DNA of 64,000 bases from Phycisphaerales bacterium. GTDB taxonomy: Bacteria; Planctomycetota; Phycisphaerae; Phycisphaerales; UBA1924. The number at the start of each line of letters is the position of its first letter. Position 1 is the first letter of the stretch. The stretch lies in assembly GCA_020849615.1 (NCBI GenBank), contig JADLFW010000015.1, positions 1 through 64,000 on the forward strand. Reading direction: 5' to 3'. This document shows, in pieces, positions 1 to 16,275 of this stretch. Position numbers and translations under genes: made by a program. Under the pieces are notes generated by a model. The model did not search any database and was not told the origin of the DNA. It worked only from the letters and a program-made list of their open reading frames with translations.

Positions 1-3447
<3,447 letters not shown>

Positions 3448-3483
3448 TCAAGACTTGATCGGACTGATTTCGGTTGAACTCAC

Positions 3484-3520
3484 ACAGGCCCATCCCGATG
3501 CGGGGTGGGCCTGTTTCGTT
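3484..3520 (+). terminator. Rho-independent terminator of rpoC
   Basis: A 13-bp stem (3484-3496 with 3502-3514, one G-T wobble) encloses a GATGC loop and is followed by TTCGTT. It sits just downstream of the rpoC stop codon and is read on the plus strand. Confidence 0.85.
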
Positions 3521-3526
3521 CCCGCA

Positions 3527-3568
3527 GCATTCGGGAGCCGGCAACCGGCATTCGGCAGCCGGCAGCCG
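3527..3568. repeat. Tandem 21-bp direct repeat (two copies)
   Basis: Two adjacent 21-bp units (3527-3547 and 3548-3568) both begin GCATTCGG and share the core AGCCGGCA. They differ at two positions. They lie between the rpoC terminator and the next gene. No function is evident. Confidence 0.6.
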
Positions 3569-3588
3569 GGTTGTGTGGAGTGATCGGA

Positions 3589-3834
3589 TCAGGCCCGGAT
3601 GGGCTTGGACTCGCGGGTCAGGCGGCGGTAGCTCTCGGAGCCGATGACGGGCAGCTCGGTGAGCCCCGTGCGGACCATGAGGCGGATGTAGGGCATGCAG
3701 AGGCCGCACGCCGAGCCGCAGCCGAGTTCATCGGCCATGCGCTCGACGGGGATGCCCGCCTTCTGCGCGGCCTGCTTCAGGTCGCAGAAGAGCACATTCC
3801 GGCAGCAGCAGCGATCGACGCGGGACTCTTCCAT
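3589..3834 (-). CDS. BFD-like [2Fe-2S]-binding protein
   Basis: This is an 81-residue protein with the spacing of a bacterioferritin-associated-ferredoxin-like [2Fe-2S] domain. An N-terminal Cys cluster (RCCCRNVLFCDL, about residues 8-19) and a later CGSACGLC (about residues 39-46) can supply four ligands, separated by a helix (QAAQKAGIPVERMADEL). BFD-like domains pass electrons or iron in storage and assembly systems, but the partner here is unknown. It lies downstream of the riboswitch-controlled surface operon, separated by about 160 nt with an inverted repeat, so it is probably a separate unit. Start ATG at 3834. Confidence 0.75.
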   Translation of the reverse strand: MEESRVDRCCCRNVLFCDLKQAAQKAGIPVERMADELGCGSACGLCMPYIRLMVRTGLTELPVIGSESYRRLTRESKPIRA

Positions 3835-3878
3835 GGTCTATGGCTCACCAGTCCGGGTGGACCCGATTGGGGCTCAGC

Positions 3879-3917
3879 GGGCCATCCTGACGCGAGATGC
3901 TAGCGGATGGATGGCCC
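3879..3917. repeat. 9-bp inverted repeat between pseudopilin and BFD-like gene
   Basis: GGGCCATCC (3879-3887) and GGATGGCCC (3909-3917) are perfect inverted copies 21 nt apart. They could form a hairpin in the transcript leaving the pseudopilin gene. There is no T-tract, so a terminator role is uncertain. Confidence 0.4.
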
Positions 3918-3998
3918 GTCTGAAGAGAGGAGGATCCCCTAGAAAATCCGGGGATGGCGGGGGGGGGGAGGGTGCCCGGCCGGCGGGCGGGCCCGGCG

Positions 3999-4841
3999 TC
4001 ACTTCCACGAGGCCCAGTCGGGGACGTAGTGGGGGTCGTTGGTGGTGCCGACGGAGCCGATGAACTCATCGAGGATGATGCCATCAACGCGGTAGGAGAC
4101 GGTATGGGCGCTGCCGTCGGCCCGGGCCGAGATGACCAGGCCCGGCGCGTTGCTGCGCCGGTTGTGGCGGAACGCGGTGGTGGGGGAGGGATTGAGCGCC
4201 CACGTGCCGGCGGTGCGGCCCGAGAACAGGAACGGCGGGTCGAGCAGGGCGCAGTTGGCCCGGCCGCCGCCCGGGAGCAATGCATCGGCGAAGACGAAGA
4301 GATCGGTGGGGCGCTGGATCTCAAGGACGCGCTTCCACGAGCGGAACCCGATGAACTGGGCCCAGCCCGGCGTCTTGGAGGGGCTGAGGTAATAGCCGTT
4401 GTAGCCGTAGGTGCTGGTCGGCGCTGGGAAGGGTCCCTGCGGGCGGTAGGAACCCCACGGCTGGGAGGGGCACTCGAAGACGGAGCGGGCCCGGAGCTGG
4501 GCGTCGAGGTAGGGCGCGATGAACCCGCGTTCGTGGTCGGGCGGCGTGGTGCGGGTGCCGTGCGAGCCCCACCAGAAGATCTGCTCGCCATCCTCGGGGA
4601 TGTCGGGGGGCTCGAAGTAGGCCAGCGGCATGGCGCGGTCCTTGTAGTCGTTGGCGTAAAGGTGCCACGCGGTGACGAGCTGGCGCTGGTTGGAGGCGCA
4701 GACGGCCATCCGGGCGGCGCCGCGGGCCCGGCTGAGCGCGGGCAGGAGGATGGCGATCAGAGCGGCGATGATGGCGATGACCACCAGCAGCTCGATGAGC
4801 GTGAAGGCGGCGTGCCGGGCTGGCGCGTGACCCCGCTTCAC
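3999..4841 (-). CDS. Type II secretion/type IV pilin-like protein (pseudopilin)
   Basis: The 280-residue protein starts with GTG at 4841, overlapping the TGA of the upstream gene as GTGA, which implies translational coupling. A short basic leader is followed by the prepilin signature [20 protein letters not shown] (about residues 12-31), with the conserved Glu five residues into the mature protein after a likely peptidase cleavage site. The globular part is the planctomycete large-pseudopilin type, with cysteines (about residues 48 and 120) and an HNRR..ARADGS segment near the C-terminus resembling the H-Xn-DG tail of DUF1559-like proteins. It is the third gene of the riboswitch-controlled operon. 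The role is unknown; assembly into a pseudopilus or surface display is inferred from the family. Confidence 0.85.
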
Positions 4842-6418
4842 GGGCGACCACCCTTCATGTCCTCGATCTCCCCACGTCGCAGCTCGGCTTCGAGGGCCGA
4901 CTGATCGGCCAGTGTAACCGCGCCGTCCTGGTTTACATCACGATTTCCCCTGCCCTGGCCCCAGGCGTACAGGTCATCCACATCCACGCGGTGGTCGCCG
5001 TTGACATCAAAGTCGGGAGGCGGCGGGCCGAAGGCGATAAGGCCCGCCGCCCCGACCGTGTACAGGTTGGCATCCGCGAGGGCGGGGGTGGACCCCCCGC
5101 CGATGATGTGCTGCATGATGAAGCCGGAGGTGCCGGGCGGCTTGTCGAGGTCGATCTGGTAGAGGTCGGTGCAAGGGGCGGCGACATCGGAACTGGCGGG
5201 GATAGTTCCCACGAACAGGGTTCGGCCGGCCCCTCCCAGCCCGGGGGCGGCGGCGGGCTGGTGGGTCCAGCCGCCGAGGGGGGTGACATCACCGGAGTCC
5301 CACACCCGAACGGCGGAGGAGCCCAGGTCGCGATAGAGCTGGATGGAGCGTCGGGAGCCGAAGCCGCTGATGCCGGTCGAGACGGCGATGCGGTTGTCGG
5401 CGACGGGGATGGGTGTGGAGGAGGTCCGGTTGCAGTCGACGGACCAGACGAGCTGGCCATCGTCGGCCCGGACCTTGACGAGGTTGCCCGAGTTGATGCC
5501 GGCGAAGTAGGCGTAGGAGGCGGCGTAGATGAACTGCTCGGACCCGGATCCGGCGACGCAGAGGCCGCCGAAGAAGCCTTCGGGCTTGGGATTCTCGAAG
5601 ACCCAGGATGGAAACGGGGCGGAGGTGGTGTCGGCGGGAAAGGCCAGGATCAGGCCCGGCGCGAAGCTGAACTCGCCGACGGAGGTGACGAAAACGGTGG
5701 GTTGGCCGAAGGTGTTGCGGGCGTAGGCGGGGGTGTTGCCCGAAGTGGCGCCGATGGGGGTGGACCAGACGATCTCGCCGGGGTTGTAGGGATTGACGGG
5801 GATGCGTCGGGGGTCGGCGTTGATGCAGTAGAGCCGTCCGGAGATGCCGAAGCCGTCGAAGTCGGTGATGAAGACGCGGTTGGTGAGGGGGAGATCGGAG
5901 GTGACAAGGGGCGAGGCGTTGACGACCTCGCGATCGAGCTCGGTCTGCCAGCGCGGCTGGCCCGTGAAGAGGTCAACGGCGGTGATGAAGCGGCCCGTCG
6001 CGGCGATGACGGTGTTGTTGAGCGTGTCGATGGCGGGGGTGGACCAGGAGCTCAGCGAGGGGGTGGGGATTGGTGCGGCCCAGCGGAGGGCGGCGGTGCG
6101 GCGGTCAACGGCGAAGAGGCGGAACTGGGGTGAGCCGGAGATGACAACCGAGCCGACCGCGATGGCGAAGTCGCGCGAGCAGACGACGCCGGCCTGGCCG
6201 ACAAAGGTGATGGCCCGGCCCGCGGCGTCGGTGGAGCGGGTCCACGCGGGGACGGTGAGCGGGGCGGGGAGGGTGGCGGAGACCGAGACCCGGGCCGCGG
6301 AACCGGCGAACTGTGTCCACTCGTGCTGGGCCAGGGCGTTCTGCGCGAAAACGGCGGCGAGGGCCGCGAAGAGGCCCGTACGGAGCGCCCCGCCGGTCCG
6401 GGCGTGGGGCCGCGCCAT
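4838..6418 (-). CDS. Secreted PQQ-like beta-propeller protein with C-terminal type I dockerin
   Basis: The 526-residue protein uses the ATG at 6418, which gives a clean signal peptide ([18 protein letters not shown]). An in-frame TTG at 6568 would add 50 residues with no SD. The body has repeated blade-like segments typical of PQQ-like/WD-type propellers ([44 protein letters not shown]). The C-terminus carries two dockerin calcium-binding repeats, [13 protein letters not shown] and [12 protein letters not shown]. Dockerins of this kind are common in planctomycete secreted proteins without any cellulosome. It is the second gene of the cobalamin-riboswitch operon, between the PEP-CTERM-like protein and the pseudopilin. 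A B12-binding propeller role like Bacteroidetes BtuG is a hypothesis only. Confidence 0.85.
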
Positions 6419-6564
6419 CGCGGCCGGGCCACCCCCGGCTCCCTCTAGCCGGCGGAGCGCCCCGTACGGAATCCCCAAGGTGATGAACCGGGCGAATCTC
6501 ACAAGCCGCGGGGCCGGTCTTTCGACTGGCCCGCGACACTCTCTCCCTCCCTGCGGGGGAGGAA

Positions 6565-7398
6565 TCAAAACACACGCCGCCGGGAACGCACGGCGGCGGC
6601 TATGAACAGCAGGACCGGCGCGGGGCTCGCCGGGACCGGGCTGACGTCCGCGAACGCATCGATCTCGAACTTGCCGGGCGGCCCGGCGGGCTTCGAGACG
6701 CGGACGAAGGAAATGGAAGAAAGGCTCGCGGCGGCGAGATCCACCCCGGCCCCGCCGCCGGAGCCGCTGTAACCGGCGACGATGTCAACGAACGTCAGGC
6801 CGGTTGGATCGAAAGACGGATCGACGGGCCTGGTGAAATCGGAGTTCACGAGGCCCGGCGTCGTCGAGTACGGATCGGTGAGGTCGGAGTAGCCCAGCGT
6901 GGGGAAGGCCCCATCGGGGTTGATGAGCGGGATGGTGCGCCAGTCGAGGCCATCGGCGCTGACCTCGATGAGGCCCGTCTCGGCGCCGAGCGGCCCGGCC
7001 GTGCCGGTGGGGAAGGCCAGGTCGGTGTAGAAGGCGTTGCCGAAGACCAGGAGATCAACGCCGAAGGGGTTGAGCGGGTCATTGGTGACGGGCTCATTGA
7101 AGCGGATGGTGAGCGAGCCGCCCGCGCCGATGGAGACGATCTCGCCGGGGTCGAAGGGCGGGCTGAAGGGTGTCACGGCGGCGGGGAAGCCGAAGACGAC
7201 GCCGCTGAAGCGGGTGGGCTGGCCGATCGCCGCGGCGGGGTCGGGGTAGACAGGCGAGCCGCCGATGCCGGGCGTGAAATCGACGACGGCGTCGGCCCAG
7301 GGATCGGCCGCGCGGGCCGGGGTGTTCAAGCCGGGGAGGCCCGTCAAAAGGGCGAGGGCGGGCACGAGAAAGACGGAGGAGCGGAACGAACGAAACAC
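6565..7398 (-). CDS. Exported PEP-CTERM-like surface protein, cobalamin-riboswitch controlled
   Basis: The 277-residue protein starts at GTG 7398, which has a strong GGAGGG Shine-Dalgarno 7 nt upstream; a longer upstream frame lacks one. It has a signal peptide (VFLVPALALLTGL...ARA), a mature domain rich in beta-strand with PAAAIGQPTR, VSIGAGGSLTIRFNEPV and GVDLLVFGNAFYTD, then SADGLDWRTIP. The C-terminus is tripartite: PVPASPAP, a hydrophobic stretch, then RSRRR, like PEP-CTERM sorting tails but without the Glu. The LGxxGxxxxxFxxPVxN...GxDFxVxGN pattern resembles, from memory, B12-regulated surface proteins of Bacteroidetes. It is the first gene after the riboswitch and probably leads a three-gene operon. 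Ligand and exact family are unproven. Confidence 0.8.
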   Translation of the reverse strand: MFRSFRSSVFLVPALALLTGLPGLNTPARAADPWADAVVDFTPGIGGSPVYPDPAAAIGQPTRFSGVVFGFPAAVTPFSPPFDPGEIVSIGAGGSLTIRFNEPVTNDPLNPFGVDLLVFGNAFYTDLAFPTGTAGPLGAETGLIEVSADGLDWRTIPLINPDGAFPTLGYSDLTDPYSTTPGLVNSDFTRPVDPSFDPTGLTFVDIVAGYSGSGGGAGVDLAAASLSSISFVRVSKPAGPPGKFEIDAFADVSPVPASPAPVLLFIAAAVRSRRRVF

Positions 7399-7410
7399 AC
7401 CGGACTCCCT

Positions 7411-7428
7411 CCGCGGCGAAAGCCGCGG
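7411..7428 (-). promoter_or_regulatory. Hairpin abutting the Shine-Dalgarno of the riboswitch operon
   Basis: CCGCGGC (7411-7417) and GCCGCGG (7422-7428) form a perfect 7-bp stem with a 4-nt loop. Read on the minus strand, the 3' arm runs straight into the AGGGAG ribosome-binding site for the GTG at 7398, sharing its first bases. It is a plausible translational expression platform for the riboswitch, but alternative pairing has not been modelled. Confidence 0.5.
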
Positions 7429-7615
7429 CGTTGCATCCCGAGCGCGCGGGACGGCCCTGCGGACACACATCGGCGCTTCGCGGGGGGAGTGGATTGGACG
7501 GTGAGAGGTCGCGCGGCAAGGCTCGCAGCGACGTCGCCGACCGCCCCTTTTCCCGGATCGGATCCGGGACCGCGAGGGCCGCCAAGCTGCCGGCCCGCAT
7601 ACGGCGGGACGGCGT

Positions 7616-7800
7616 CATCGGCAGGTCTTCCGGCTTGGGGCTCGGCGAATCCGCCTTCCCGGGATCGGCGCGTCGCGTGGACGGGCGTCTTCCAGTGGCT
7701 CGGGGATCACTCCCCGTTGGATTCGCTTCAGCACCCCTTACGGCGGCGCGTCCGCGGTGGAATGGACCTCTCGCGAGGTCGGCACCACACTTCCCTTTTC
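7616..7800 (-). ncRNA. Cobalamin (vitamin B12) riboswitch
   Basis: Read on the minus strand, the conserved aptamer boxes occur in order. GGGAAG is near 7797-7791. A GGTGCTGAAGCGAATCC segment follows, then GAGCCACTGG around 7701-7692. A central GGGAAGGCGG comes next, and the B12-box-like tail GCCGGAAGACCTGCC ends at 7620. An extra GACCTC-GCGA-GAGGTC hairpin lies in a variable arm. The element sits between a likely promoter (7848-7875) and the GTG start at 7398, so it should control the PEP-CTERM-like, propeller and pseudopilin genes. The family normally represses expression when cobalamin is abundant. Exact ends of P1 are uncertain. Confidence 0.88.
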
Positions 7801-7803
7801 AGC

Positions 7804-7831
7804 CCCGGCCGGGCGGAGAGCCCGCCGGGGC
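7804..7831 (-). promoter_or_regulatory. Leader hairpin 5' of the cobalamin riboswitch
   Basis: CCCCGGC-CGGGC and GCCCG-CCGGGG arms surround GGAGA, with one bulged base. In the minus-strand transcript this hairpin lies at the very 5' end of the leader, just before the aptamer. It may be a protective or insulating stem. Confidence 0.4.
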
Positions 7832-7847
7832 ACCGATAACCGCGATC

Positions 7848-7875
7848 AGAATACCGCGCGGGGCCGCGATGTCAA
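7848..7875 (-). promoter_or_regulatory. Sigma70-like promoter for the riboswitch operon
   Basis: A perfect -35 hexamer TTGACA (7875-7870) and a -10-like TATTCT (7853-7848) are spaced by 16 nt on the minus strand. A start near 7841 would place the leader hairpin and riboswitch at the 5' end of the RNA. The -10 matches 4 of 6 consensus bases. Confidence 0.55.
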
Positions 7876-13012: not shown

Positions 13013-15079
13013 TCAGGAGGCGAGAGTCAGGTCTTCCATCTGCCACTGGCCGCCCGGGATCCACCAGTAGCGGAGGACGTGGGCATCGGAGGCTTGGCGG
13101 CCCATGAGGCTGATGGAGCCATCCGCGGCAGCGAGACCGCGGAGGGAGCCGGCCGGCAGCTTGGCGCCGGCGACGAGGTCGGAGATGGGGGAGATCGACC
13201 AGTCGGTCAGGCCCGGCGCCCACCAGTAGATCATGAGCTTGCCGTCGTTATCGAGCCCGGCGATGTTCAGCCCGCCCCACGGGGTGACGTAGCTGGCCAT
13301 GCTGATGCCCTTCAGGGCCGGGCCGCTGAACTGGTCCGACAGGTTGTTGGTGAGCCAGTCGCCGCCGAAGGACGGGACCCACCAGGTGACGGTGACCTTG
13401 CCGGAGGGGTCGGCGCCGGCGAGGTTGATGCCGCCCCACGAGGTGAGGTAGACAGTGAGGCCGCCGGAAATAGCGGGGGCGCCGGTGATGGCGGAGAGGT
13501 CATCGGTGCGCCACTGCGCCAGGCCCGGCGCCCACCAGACGACGTGGATGCGGCCCGCGGCGTCGAGGCCGGCGATGTTCTGGCCGTTCCACTCGGTGAC
13601 GTAAGAAGCGAGGTTGCCGGTGAAGGCGGGGGTGGCGAGGCCCTGGGGCGTCAGGTGGTCGCGGGAGAGATCGACGAATGACCAGCTGAAGCGGGAGGCC
13701 TGGCCGTCGAAGGGGAGCTGCTGGTAGAGGACGATGTGGCCCGCGCTGTCGCGGCCCGCGATCTTGACGGTGTTCTCGCGGTCGGTGAAGACGGTGATGT
13801 CGGAGGTGATGATGGCGCTGCCGGCGATGGACTCGGTGAGGTTGGTGAGCTCCCAGGAGCCGTCGGCCCGCTCCTGGCGGAAGAGCAGGAGGCCGATGGG
13901 CGCGGGGGCGGCGGCGTAGGTGTTGCCATCCTTGGGGTCGGTCCAGCTGGTGACCTGCTTGGTGAGCAGCGGCCCGCCCAGCCAGGCGTGGAGGTCGGTG
14001 GCCTTCCAGGCGCCGGCGGAATCCTGCTGGAAGACGAGCGGGCGGCCGAAGGGGTCGAGTGTGGTGATGGTGATGGTGGCGGGGGCCTGGGGGCTTTCGG
14101 GGCGGTAGGAGCCGGAGACGACGGCGCCGACGGCGGCCCGGCCGTCGGCGGCGGGGGAGCCCGTGATCTCGGAGGCCTTGGCATCGAGTTTCACGTTGAC
14201 ATCGGCGATGGTAACCGAGTTGACGGTCTTGGTCCGGCCCGTCTTCATGTTGGTGAAGACGACCCGGTAGGTGCCGGGGTTGAGGGCGATCTGGTAGTTG
14301 CCCGCGGCGTCGGTGGTGTAGGTGCCCTTGGGGGTGGAGGTGGGGAGCGCGGTTGAGGTGAAGACATCGATGCGGACCTGGTCGAGGCCCTCATCGATGT
14401 CGTAGAAGTTGTTCGAGTTGGCATCGTCGAAGGCGACGCCGAGGAGATAGACCTTCGGGTTGAAACCCTGGTATCCGAAGAGCTGGGTGTAGTAGCTGAC
14501 ATAGCGGGTGCCGGCATCGCTGGGCGGGAAGTAGAAGCCCGCGCCGAACTCGTCGTAGTGGAACTCTTCATCGAACGTGTCGTGCAGGGAAAGGACGTTC
14601 TTGCGGTGGCCCAGCGACTTGAGCCAGGCGATGTGGGCGGCCTCGACGGTGGGGTAGCCGGCGGCGATGTTCTCACCGGCGGAGACCGAGTAGCCCTGGG
14701 CGACCGCGCGGTCGGTTGGGTCGAGCCCATCGGGGTTGACGTGGTCGAAGAACGCCCGGTCGGCCATGTCCCTGCTGCCCAGCCGGGCCGCCTTGGTCAG
14801 GGCCTCGTTGAGGGCGAGGGGTTCCTGAGGAACCAGGTGCGTCAGTTCGGCCTCGGTGAGGCCCTCGGTGAGATCGACGGCGTAGCGCTGGGACTCGGCC
14901 TGCGGGTTGGCCCGGGCGCGGTTGACGAGTTCGAGGAGGAACACCTCATCGCTGGACCAGGAGAAGGAGAGGAGGGTGCGGGGCTCGAGGGGATCGAAGA
15001 ACGGGCCCGGCGTGTTTGGCCGGCCGGGTGGGTTGTTCGGCGTTGCGGCCCGGACGAGACGGGCCAGAGCGGCGAGCAT
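13013..15079 (-). CDS. LEPR-xLL surface protein with CAP/SCP domain, SdrD-like Ig domain and lectin-like repeats
   Basis: The 688-residue protein starts at ATG 15079 (GGAG upstream). Residues about 24-34 read FDPLEPRTLLS, the planctomycete LEPR-xLL surface signature. A CAP (PR-1/SCP) domain follows (ELVNRARANPQAE, FDHVNPDGLDPTDRA, YSVSAGENIAAGY, AWLKSLGHRKN). Next comes an SdrD/Cna-B-like domain (FDDANSNNFYDIDEGL, DAAGNYQIALNPGTYRVVF). The C-terminal half holds about six repeats with GGINLAGAD.SGKVTVTWWVP-type blades that resemble tachylectin/PLL propellers. CAP domains in bacteria are often extracellular; the repeats suggest glycan binding. No neighbour shares its operon. Confidence 0.88.
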   Translation of the reverse strand: MLAALARLVRAATPNNPPGRPNTPGPFFDPLEPRTLLSFSWSSDEVFLLELVNRARANPQAESQRYAVDLTEGLTEAELTHLVPQEPLALNEALTKAARLGSRDMADRAFFDHVNPDGLDPTDRAVAQGYSVSAGENIAAGYPTVEAAHIAWLKSLGHRKNVLSLHDTFDEEFHYDEFGAGFYFPPSDAGTRYVSYYTQLFGYQGFNPKVYLLGVAFDDANSNNFYDIDEGLDQVRIDVFTSTALPTSTPKGTYTTDAAGNYQIALNPGTYRVVFTNMKTGRTKTVNSVTIADVNVKLDAKASEITGSPAADGRAAVGAVVSGSYRPESPQAPATITITTLDPFGRPLVFQQDSAGAWKATDLHAWLGGPLLTKQVTSWTDPKDGNTYAAAPAPIGLLLFRQERADGSWELTNLTESIAGSAIITSDITVFTDRENTVKIAGRDSAGHIVLYQQLPFDGQASRFSWSFVDLSRDHLTPQGLATPAFTGNLASYVTEWNGQNIAGLDAAGRIHVVWWAPGLAQWRTDDLSAITGAPAISGGLTVYLTSWGGINLAGADPSGKVTVTWWVPSFGGDWLTNNLSDQFSGPALKGISMASYVTPWGGLNIAGLDNDGKLMIYWWAPGLTDWSISPISDLVAGAKLPAGSLRGLAAADGSISLMGRQASDAHVLRYWWIPGGQWQMEDLTLAS

Positions 15080-15186
15080 GACTCCACTCCCCGGGCCCGG
15101 CGCGCAGCAGGCCCGATACTGACTTCGAACGCTCAAGAACAGTAGATGAGGGGCCGGGCCCGGGTTCGTGCGCGGGGGGTCGGTTT

Positions 15187-16275
15187 CTAGGGGATAACCG
15201 GCCCGGGAGGGGGTGGGGTCAGGTCGGAGAAGCGGGGGGCGCTTTTGAGGATGCGGAAGTTGGTGCGGTAGCAGTAGGGGCAGGTGATGGCCTGCCGGGT
15301 CGGGAGCGGGCGGAGATCGAAGCGGCAGTAGACGCACCGGCCCGGGCGGCGGAGGAGGCGGCGGAGGAAGGACCAGGTGGGGAGGGCCCAGAGGGCGAGG
15401 AGGAGGGACCAGAGGGGGACGTGAATTTTCCAGCCCCATTCGCCGCTGCTGTCCCAGCTGAAGGTTGGCCATCTCCATCCCATCCATGGGAACCGGGCCG
15501 CCCAGCGATTGAAATCCGCGGAATCGTAATGCCAAGCTTCATCGCTCGAAGAGTGCCTGACGTCGCTCCACAGGAAGAGGCCGCCATTCGATGCGATGAA
15601 GTCCAGCGCATGCTCGTTCAGTTCGTAGCGGTTCCATTGAACCCACTCGGCCCAGCGCCACAGCGAAGTCCGGTTGTGCGTGAGCACCATGCCGGCAAAC
15701 AGAGCCAGCGTGGCGATCCATGTGGTAGCGCGGAAGAACGGAGTCCACTTCGGAGCTCGTCTCGAGCTCTGCGCGTCGACGACTACCGCGGGTGCGCGAC
15801 GTTCAACTGCGGCACCGCATTCTGGACAGAATCGCGACTCATCCGGCAGTCCCTGCATGTCGTACCCGCACGAACGGCAGATATTCCCTTTGCGAACCAC
15901 GTCGAAGCGGCGGGCGAGGATCCATGCGATGGCGATCGGGGGAACCGGTATCCAGAGCGGGAGCGACCACGAGAAAGCGTTACGCGGAGGCAGGAACCAC
16001 CAGTAGCGCGGGAGGTGGGGCTCATTGCCTTGCACAACCACGCGCCAGTCTTCCGCTTCCCAAGGGGTACGAACGGCGATCCCGGTGGACAGGATGATGC
16101 CGGGCCCGGTTTCGACGTGATGTTGCACCCCGGCGATTGTGGGCAACGACACCCCCAGGCCAATGAAGCAACTTCCCAGCCAAGTGGCGATCGCAACGAA
16201 AAACAGCACCTTGAGCGCACGCCGGATCATCCGGATGCGAGGTGCGTGTCGCGCGTTGTGGGAGGGGCCGGGCAT
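15187..16275 (-). CDS. Membrane protein with two zinc ribbons, function unknown
   Basis: This 362-residue protein alternates hydrophobic segments (VLFFVAIATWLGSCFIGLGV, PIAIAWILARR, TWIATLALFAGMVL, WSLLLALWALPTW) with two CxxC pairs. These are CRSCGYDMQGLP..CPECG near residue 135 and CVYCRFDLRPLP..CPYC near residue 320. The CGYDLRGLP-type ribbon is widespread in planctomycete membrane proteins of unknown role. The start may be ATG 16275 or ATG 16230 (RMIRRALK). Confidence 0.65.
   Translation of the reverse strand: MPGPSHNARHAPRIRMIRRALKVLFFVAIATWLGSCFIGLGVSLPTIAGVQHHVETGPGIILSTGIAVRTPWEAEDWRVVVQGNEPHLPRYWWFLPPRNAFSWSLPLWIPVPPIAIAWILARRFDVVRKGNICRSCGYDMQGLPDESRFCPECGAAVERRAPAVVVDAQSSRRAPKWTPFFRATTWIATLALFAGMVLTHNRTSLWRWAEWVQWNRYELNEHALDFIASNGGLFLWSDVRHSSSDEAWHYDSADFNRWAARFPWMGWRWPTFSWDSSGEWGWKIHVPLWSLLLALWALPTWSFLRRLLRRPGRCVYCRFDLRPLPTRQAITCPYCYRTNFRILKSAPRFSDLTPPPPGPVIP

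Follow-up and report, generated by a model that had tools for sequence, protein, structure and literature searches.

A predicted divergent member of the BtuH superfamily in a cobalamin riboswitch-controlled operon of Phycisphaerae

BtuH is the surface protein by which gut Bacteroides capture vitamin B12. Exported B12-locus proteins are likewise known from the BtuJ/DUF4465 family (IPR027828), which also occurs in Planctomycetes, the group to which Mucisphaera calidilacus belongs. DUF4465 proteins, including one from M. calidilacus, bind B12 (PMC13398666). The described B12 site of BtuH2 comprises Asn399 and Gln333, which touch the phosphate and ribose of the ligand, as well as His476, Tyr510, Trp511, and Trp577, to which corrin side groups are bound; the resemblance of the protein to other structures, e.g. 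the alginate lyase AlyQ, is described as modest, and BtuH is also found in a few Firmicutes (PMC8941943).

The window analyzed here is the complete stretch of 64,000 nucleotides that comprises positions 1-64,000 of contig JADLFW010000015.1 of Phycisphaerales bacterium GCA_020849615.1. The following features were assigned to a riboswitch and four genes on its minus strand:

7603-7852, minus strand: cobalamin riboswitch aptamer RF00174 (cmscan, 72.3 bits, E 7.1e-16, full model 1-189; B12 box GCCACTG)
6565-7398, minus strand: gene 1, predicted secreted protein of the BtuH superfamily, 277 aa, GTG start, Shine-Dalgarno sequence GGAGGGAG at 7412-7405
7309-7398, minus strand: signal peptide region of gene 1, VFRSFRSSVFLVPALALLTGLPGLNTPARA, read from the translation; lipobox Cys absent
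7030-7137, minus strand: core motif VSIGAGGSLTIRFNEPVTNDPLNPFGVDLLVFGNAF (quoted as VSIGAGGSLTIRFNEPV...FGVDLLVFGNAF), equivalent to SLGGFGGxxxxxFDHxxxN..xDFxVxGNAF of BtuH
7036-7038, minus strand: Asn codon (N of GNAF), aligned with the B12 phosphate contact Asn399 of BtuH2
6736-6765, minus strand: loop GSGGGAGVDL, by alignment equivalent to GSGGGDAFDI of the intermediate (bridge) family introduced below
6568-6642, minus strand: C-terminal tail of PxP, hydrophobic helix, and arginine cluster, a PEP-CTERM-like sorting or anchor element read from the sequence; helix in the AF2 model
4838-6568, minus strand: gene 2, exported PQQ-repeat beta-propeller with a dockerin-like C-terminus (PF13360, E 9.5e-12)
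3999-4841, minus strand: gene 3, pseudopilin with a prepilin N-terminus and a DUF1559-type domain (PF07963, 8e-7; PF07596, 6e-7)
3589-3834, minus strand: gene 4, BFD-like small Cys4 ([2Fe-2S]-type) protein, Cys pattern conserved in 11 sequences

The minus-strand ORF of gene 1 was confirmed. From an ATG, the same frame spans 6565-7470; the GTG at 7398-7396, six bases downstream of the Shine-Dalgarno sequence, is the likely start and was preferred because of this upstream motif and because the signal peptide follows directly. Behind the signal peptide, the product has a domain of about 220 residues, which is followed by the PxP-hydrophobic-Arg tail. The tails of relatives matched PEP-CTERM in four cases and Dockerin_1 in nine. 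Searches with the protein yielded no Pfam match (E<=1) and no NCBIfam match, and no paralogue was found in the home genome. Membership in DUF4465 (PF14717) was rejected, as 0 Pfam families were retrieved at E<=1; the window protein and BtuJ represent different families.

A member of the gene family was found in 44 of 61 genomes, including that of the window, with one copy each; a 45th row at E 0.006 was left out because it looked spurious. Two main types were distinguished, the window type, whose members share about 40-55% identity with the window protein, and a bridge type with shorter matches, comprising Phycisphaerae proteins intermediate between the window type and Bacteroides BtuH. Since no genome contained two matches in the family search, one type appears to take the place of the other.

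When compared with the PDB, window-type sequences yielded chance matches only, both with phmmer of the single protein and with hmmsearch of the window-type profile A7. The bridge profile A2 matched two solved proteins exclusively, namely 8blw_B (BtuG1/BtuGH) at 3.9e-29 and 7biz_A (BtuH2) at 2.5e-21, and the profile A1 matched 8blw at 6e-5. Seven Bacteroidetes relatives from the genome collection matched 7biz at 7e-80 and are thus BtuH proteins. In hhalign comparisons, the E-values of which refer to single pairs of shallow alignments, window-type A7 was aligned with bridge A3 over the whole domain (99.5%, E 3.3e-22, 206 columns) and with Bacteroidetes BtuH A8 over 50 columns (95.4%, E 1.7e-8); an unrelated-family control gave 0.1%. 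Within the riboswitch loci, the bridge HMM retrieved window-type genes and the window HMM retrieved bridge-type genes, with most E-values at or below 1e-10, and in a class-wide search the gap was filled by intermediate scores. The initial annotation had noted a likeness to the pattern LGGxGG..VxFDHPVxN..GxDFxVxGN of B12-locus surface proteins; this is the motif of the C-terminal B12-binding domain of BtuH, and the profile comparisons bore out the kinship, directly as well as through the intermediates. Judged from its sequence, gene 1 is a divergent and distant member of the BtuH superfamily and not a BtuH orthologue, and its product is probably a cobamide-capture protein with a presumed role in uptake.

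The core motif was aligned to Bacteroidetes BtuH by hhalign and to 8blw_B by HMMER. Among 23 window-type sequences, G82, D84, G184, G185, and D189 are invariant, and F88, G89, and N90 are present in at least 90%. This near-invariance, together with the retention of the gene in 44 of 61 genomes, argues against a chance motif. The bridge type is characterized by the signature YSPAPGQF...SLGGFGGSITLxFD...GLDxIVFGNAFW...EISxDxNxNGLADDPWYLIPGSH, and conserved loops peculiar to the window type are FPTLGYxD, DFTRPVDP, and YxGSGGGxGxD. With the C-terminal domain of BtuH (7biz, 8blw; Bacteroides thetaiotaomicron), the window protein shares homology via intermediates, export, the same riboswitch class, and the GNAF core including the equivalent of Asn399. 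Unlike BtuH, it lacks PKD domains and a lipobox and carries a PEP-CTERM-like C-terminal tail, FPTLGYxD and DFTRPVDP replace the long middle region, and its operon does not contain BtuB.

The conservation of the putative B12 site was not uniform. The equivalent of Asn399, which was placed by our own count on printed alignments (chain position plus 100), is kept in 22 of 23 window-type sequences and in all 34 bridge and Bacteroidetes sequences. Of these 34, 31 have retained Gln333 (PAPGQF), which is missing in the window type. The corrin contacts His476, Tyr510, Trp511, and Trp577 are also not conserved in the window type, the respective loops being missing or unalignable. Because of these differences, B12 binding by the window protein may be weaker, different, or lost. 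A ligand pocket in the gene 1 protein is plausible, and we infer that the protein binds B12.

The AF2 model of the window protein had a mean pLDDT of 94 and a pTM of 0.88. Its Foldseek search against the PDB gave no match below 1e-3, BtuH2 was absent among the 50 matches listed, and galactose-binding/CBM32-type folds were common among the best matches. The bridge model (pLDDT 95) retrieved 8blw and 7biz at 1e-12 to 1e-14, with the next best match at 0.08; as this positive control found the two BtuH structures and nothing else significant, the search itself works. The CBM32 of AlyQ appeared weakly among the matches of the bridge model. The proposed structural relationship was thus recovered with the bridge family but not with the model of the window protein itself, so that the homology of the latter rests on sequence profiles and intermediates rather than on direct structural comparison.

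The riboswitch is located 204 nt upstream of gene 1 and is the only cobalamin riboswitch in the 4.57 Mb home genome. RF00174 was found upstream on the same strand, at a distance of 113-1726 nt, in 43 of the 44 family members, with locus L019 counted on a 27-bit match below the gathering score; the lone exception is at a contig end. It also precedes 12 of 13 further bridge genes, and bridge-type and BtuH genes of other phyla, Bacteroidetes included, are under RF00174 as well. Window-type, bridge-type, and Bacteroidetes BtuH genes all lie under cobalamin riboswitches. The genomes have roughly one riboswitch each; of the 61 riboswitches found, 43 belong to these family genes. Several of the remaining ones stand ahead of BtuH-like genes that had escaped the single-sequence search, and the one in L147 is followed by a 704-aa ORF coinciding with a TonB-receptor match of that genome. 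A split operon was observed in L152 (G013), where one riboswitch precedes a PQQ propeller and a pseudopilin and a sub-threshold riboswitch precedes a BtuH-like gene on another contig.

The region between aptamer and start codon showed no excess folding stability (z -0.06). The scan for terminator-like patterns, in which 0.3 would be expected by chance, gave a single one (7424-7403), which coincides in part with the Shine-Dalgarno sequence of gene 1. A hairpin, CCGCGG-CTTTCG-CCGCGG at 7411-7428, includes the first two G of this Shine-Dalgarno sequence, and it is possible that it serves as a translational expression platform of the riboswitch. A promoter-like TTGACA-16-TATTCT (7848-7875, minus strand; mean 0.0 in shuffled sequences) is present next to the 5' end of the riboswitch, although it shares positions with the beginning of the aptamer model.

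Gene 2 probably starts inside the ORF, near 6421. Its propeller accompanies gene 1 in 15 of 20 extended loci and is missing in the five of family f2. Beta-propellers are found beside BtuH-like genes in both phyla, the Bacteroidetes one being the lipoprotein BtuG and that of the window being of the PQQ/BamB type. Identification of gene 2 as BtuG was rejected by profile, the best solved relatives being BamB and PQQ alcohol dehydrogenases. The propellers of bridge loci have YncE as their sole, weak profile match, and they are not clearly related to the PQQ-type family (prob 5%).

Gene 3 overlaps gene 2 by 4 nt. The pseudopilin HMM matched 53 of 57 fetched riboswitch loci (window not counted), and a strict prepilin motif was present within 6 kb downstream of the riboswitch in 47 of 58 loci; with 58 such proteins encoded in the 4.57 Mb home genome, chance would place one in about 4% of single-strand stretches of 6 kb. 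By hand count, the riboswitch-linked pilin was the best match to that of the window among the paralogues of its genome in 37 of the 49 genomes with a best match listed. Gene 3 shares the prepilin N-terminus and the DUF1559-type domain with other planctomycete DUF1559/prepilin-like proteins but, unlike these, is the paralogue tied to a cobalamin riboswitch in nearly every genome; its type is a dedicated B12-regulated pseudopilin. A literature search found no paper on planctomycete B12 and pili or on riboswitch-pilin links. Across the Phycisphaerae loci L032-L051 and L138-L175, the riboswitch nearly always precedes one DUF1559-type pseudopilin, and in L140, L148, and L151 riboswitch and pseudopilin occur without a recognized BtuH-like gene.

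The HMM of gene 4 (A6) matched 26 of 58 loci, and profile libraries gave weak NirB-type matches only. The BFD-like gene stands at the operon end and is kept in both operon types. We know of no role of a BFD-like protein in B12 handling. Window-type loci of the home family have the order riboswitch, BtuH-like gene, PQQ propeller, pseudopilin, and often BFD-like gene. The f2 loci contain the pseudopilin and usually the BFD gene and lack the propeller, and in most bridge-type loci riboswitch, YncE-like propeller, BtuH-like gene, and pseudopilin follow each other, often with a BFD gene. In two related loci, the BtuH-like gene stands beside established components of B12 uptake. In L074 (Phycisphaerales bin470), a DUF4465 (BtuJ-like) gene at 4030-4923 follows the cobalamin riboswitch and precedes the BtuH-like gene, and this operon unites two B12-binding families. 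In L118 (Spirochaetales MAG, 2370-6239), a cobalamin riboswitch, a small exported protein, a BtuH-like gene, and a TonB-dependent receptor are arranged in a row. Elsewhere in the window and unrelated to the operon, 13013-15535 encodes a large exported protein that combines a CAP domain with SdrD-like and carboxypeptidase-regulatory-like repeats.

The host needs B12, as its genome encodes MetH and methylmalonyl-CoA mutase. CobS and a TonB receptor (PF00593) were not found in the home genome, each call being based on one HMM and a 92.6%-complete draft, and no TonB receptor was found in 32 of the 37 genomes of the home family, most compared genomes also being drafts; other families have TonB receptors. 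The home genome also encodes one Peripla_BP_2 protein, to which NCBIfam assigns no identity.

We consider it likely that gene 1 encodes an exported cobamide-binding protein of the BtuH superfamily and heads an operon for cobamide scavenging that is controlled by the riboswitch and apparently works without BtuB. When intracellular B12 is high, the riboswitch would lower expression of the operon; when B12 is scarce, the BtuH-like protein, the secreted beta-propeller, the pseudopilin, and the BFD-like protein would be made. The BtuH-like protein, at the cell envelope or surface, would bind the cobamide at its nucleotide-loop phosphate via the conserved Asn of GNA(F) and neighbouring loops, with the propeller as a putative BtuG-like partner. 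The pseudopilin may position or shift the binding proteins within the envelope, a role proposed because most of these genomes lack a TonB-dependent BtuB, and the BFD-like protein would belong to the induced set. More tentatively, Phycisphaerae could possess a TonB-independent route of cobamide acquisition, in which a BtuH-like binder and a propeller are delivered or moved by a dedicated pseudopilin that replaces the outer-membrane BtuB; we regard this as possible, but would not presume it.

The divergence of the binding site would also fit a BtuH-fold protein that does not bind B12 any more and has become a structural or adhesive envelope protein of the PEP-CTERM/dockerin type, the propeller or the pseudopilin being the real binder. 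The lost Gln333 and corrin contacts, the carbohydrate-binding-type folds retrieved by the protein's own model in place of BtuH2, and the anchor or dockerin tails agree with such a loss. However, it is the BtuH-like protein that is common to most riboswitch operons, while the propeller varies (PQQ versus YncE-like) and is missing in f2. Moreover, hardly any variation is seen in the phosphate-contact Asn and the glycine-rich loops, and the window and bridge types substitute for each other, with a single gene in each genome. We therefore judge loss of binding to be unlikely. A still smaller chance is assigned to convergence at the fold level, i.e. recurrence of GGxGG...GNAF strand motifs in galactose-binding-like beta-sandwiches without common ancestry with BtuH. 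Many top Foldseek matches of the window model are indeed such folds, and the direct A7-A8 alignment is confined to 50 columns, but continuous sequence intermediates join both ends over the full domain and the same riboswitch is found at both ends, which makes convergence very improbable.

Some cobalamin riboswitches govern B12-independent isozymes, and the riboswitch of the window might accordingly be thought to control a B12-independent substitute pathway instead of uptake. Yet no isozyme of a B12 enzyme is among the four products, three of which are exported and one of which is a small Fe-S-type protein, and related operons contain DUF4465 (L074) or a TonB receptor (L118). The latter operons favour uptake, and a substitute pathway is hardly to be expected.

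With this locus, the BtuH family of B12-capture proteins reaches beyond Bacteroidetes and a few Firmicutes into Phycisphaerae and, by way of the bridge proteins, into MAGs labelled Hydrogenedentota, Omnitrophota, Armatimonadetes, and Spirochaetales. The newly linked proteins carry no Pfam or NCBIfam name. The most novel part of the gene family is its conserved pairing with a pseudopilin in bacteria mostly without BtuB. Because a pseudopilin-centred cobalamin-riboswitch regulon has now been defined in bacteria that mostly lack TonB receptors, the passage of B12 across their outer membrane becomes directly testable.
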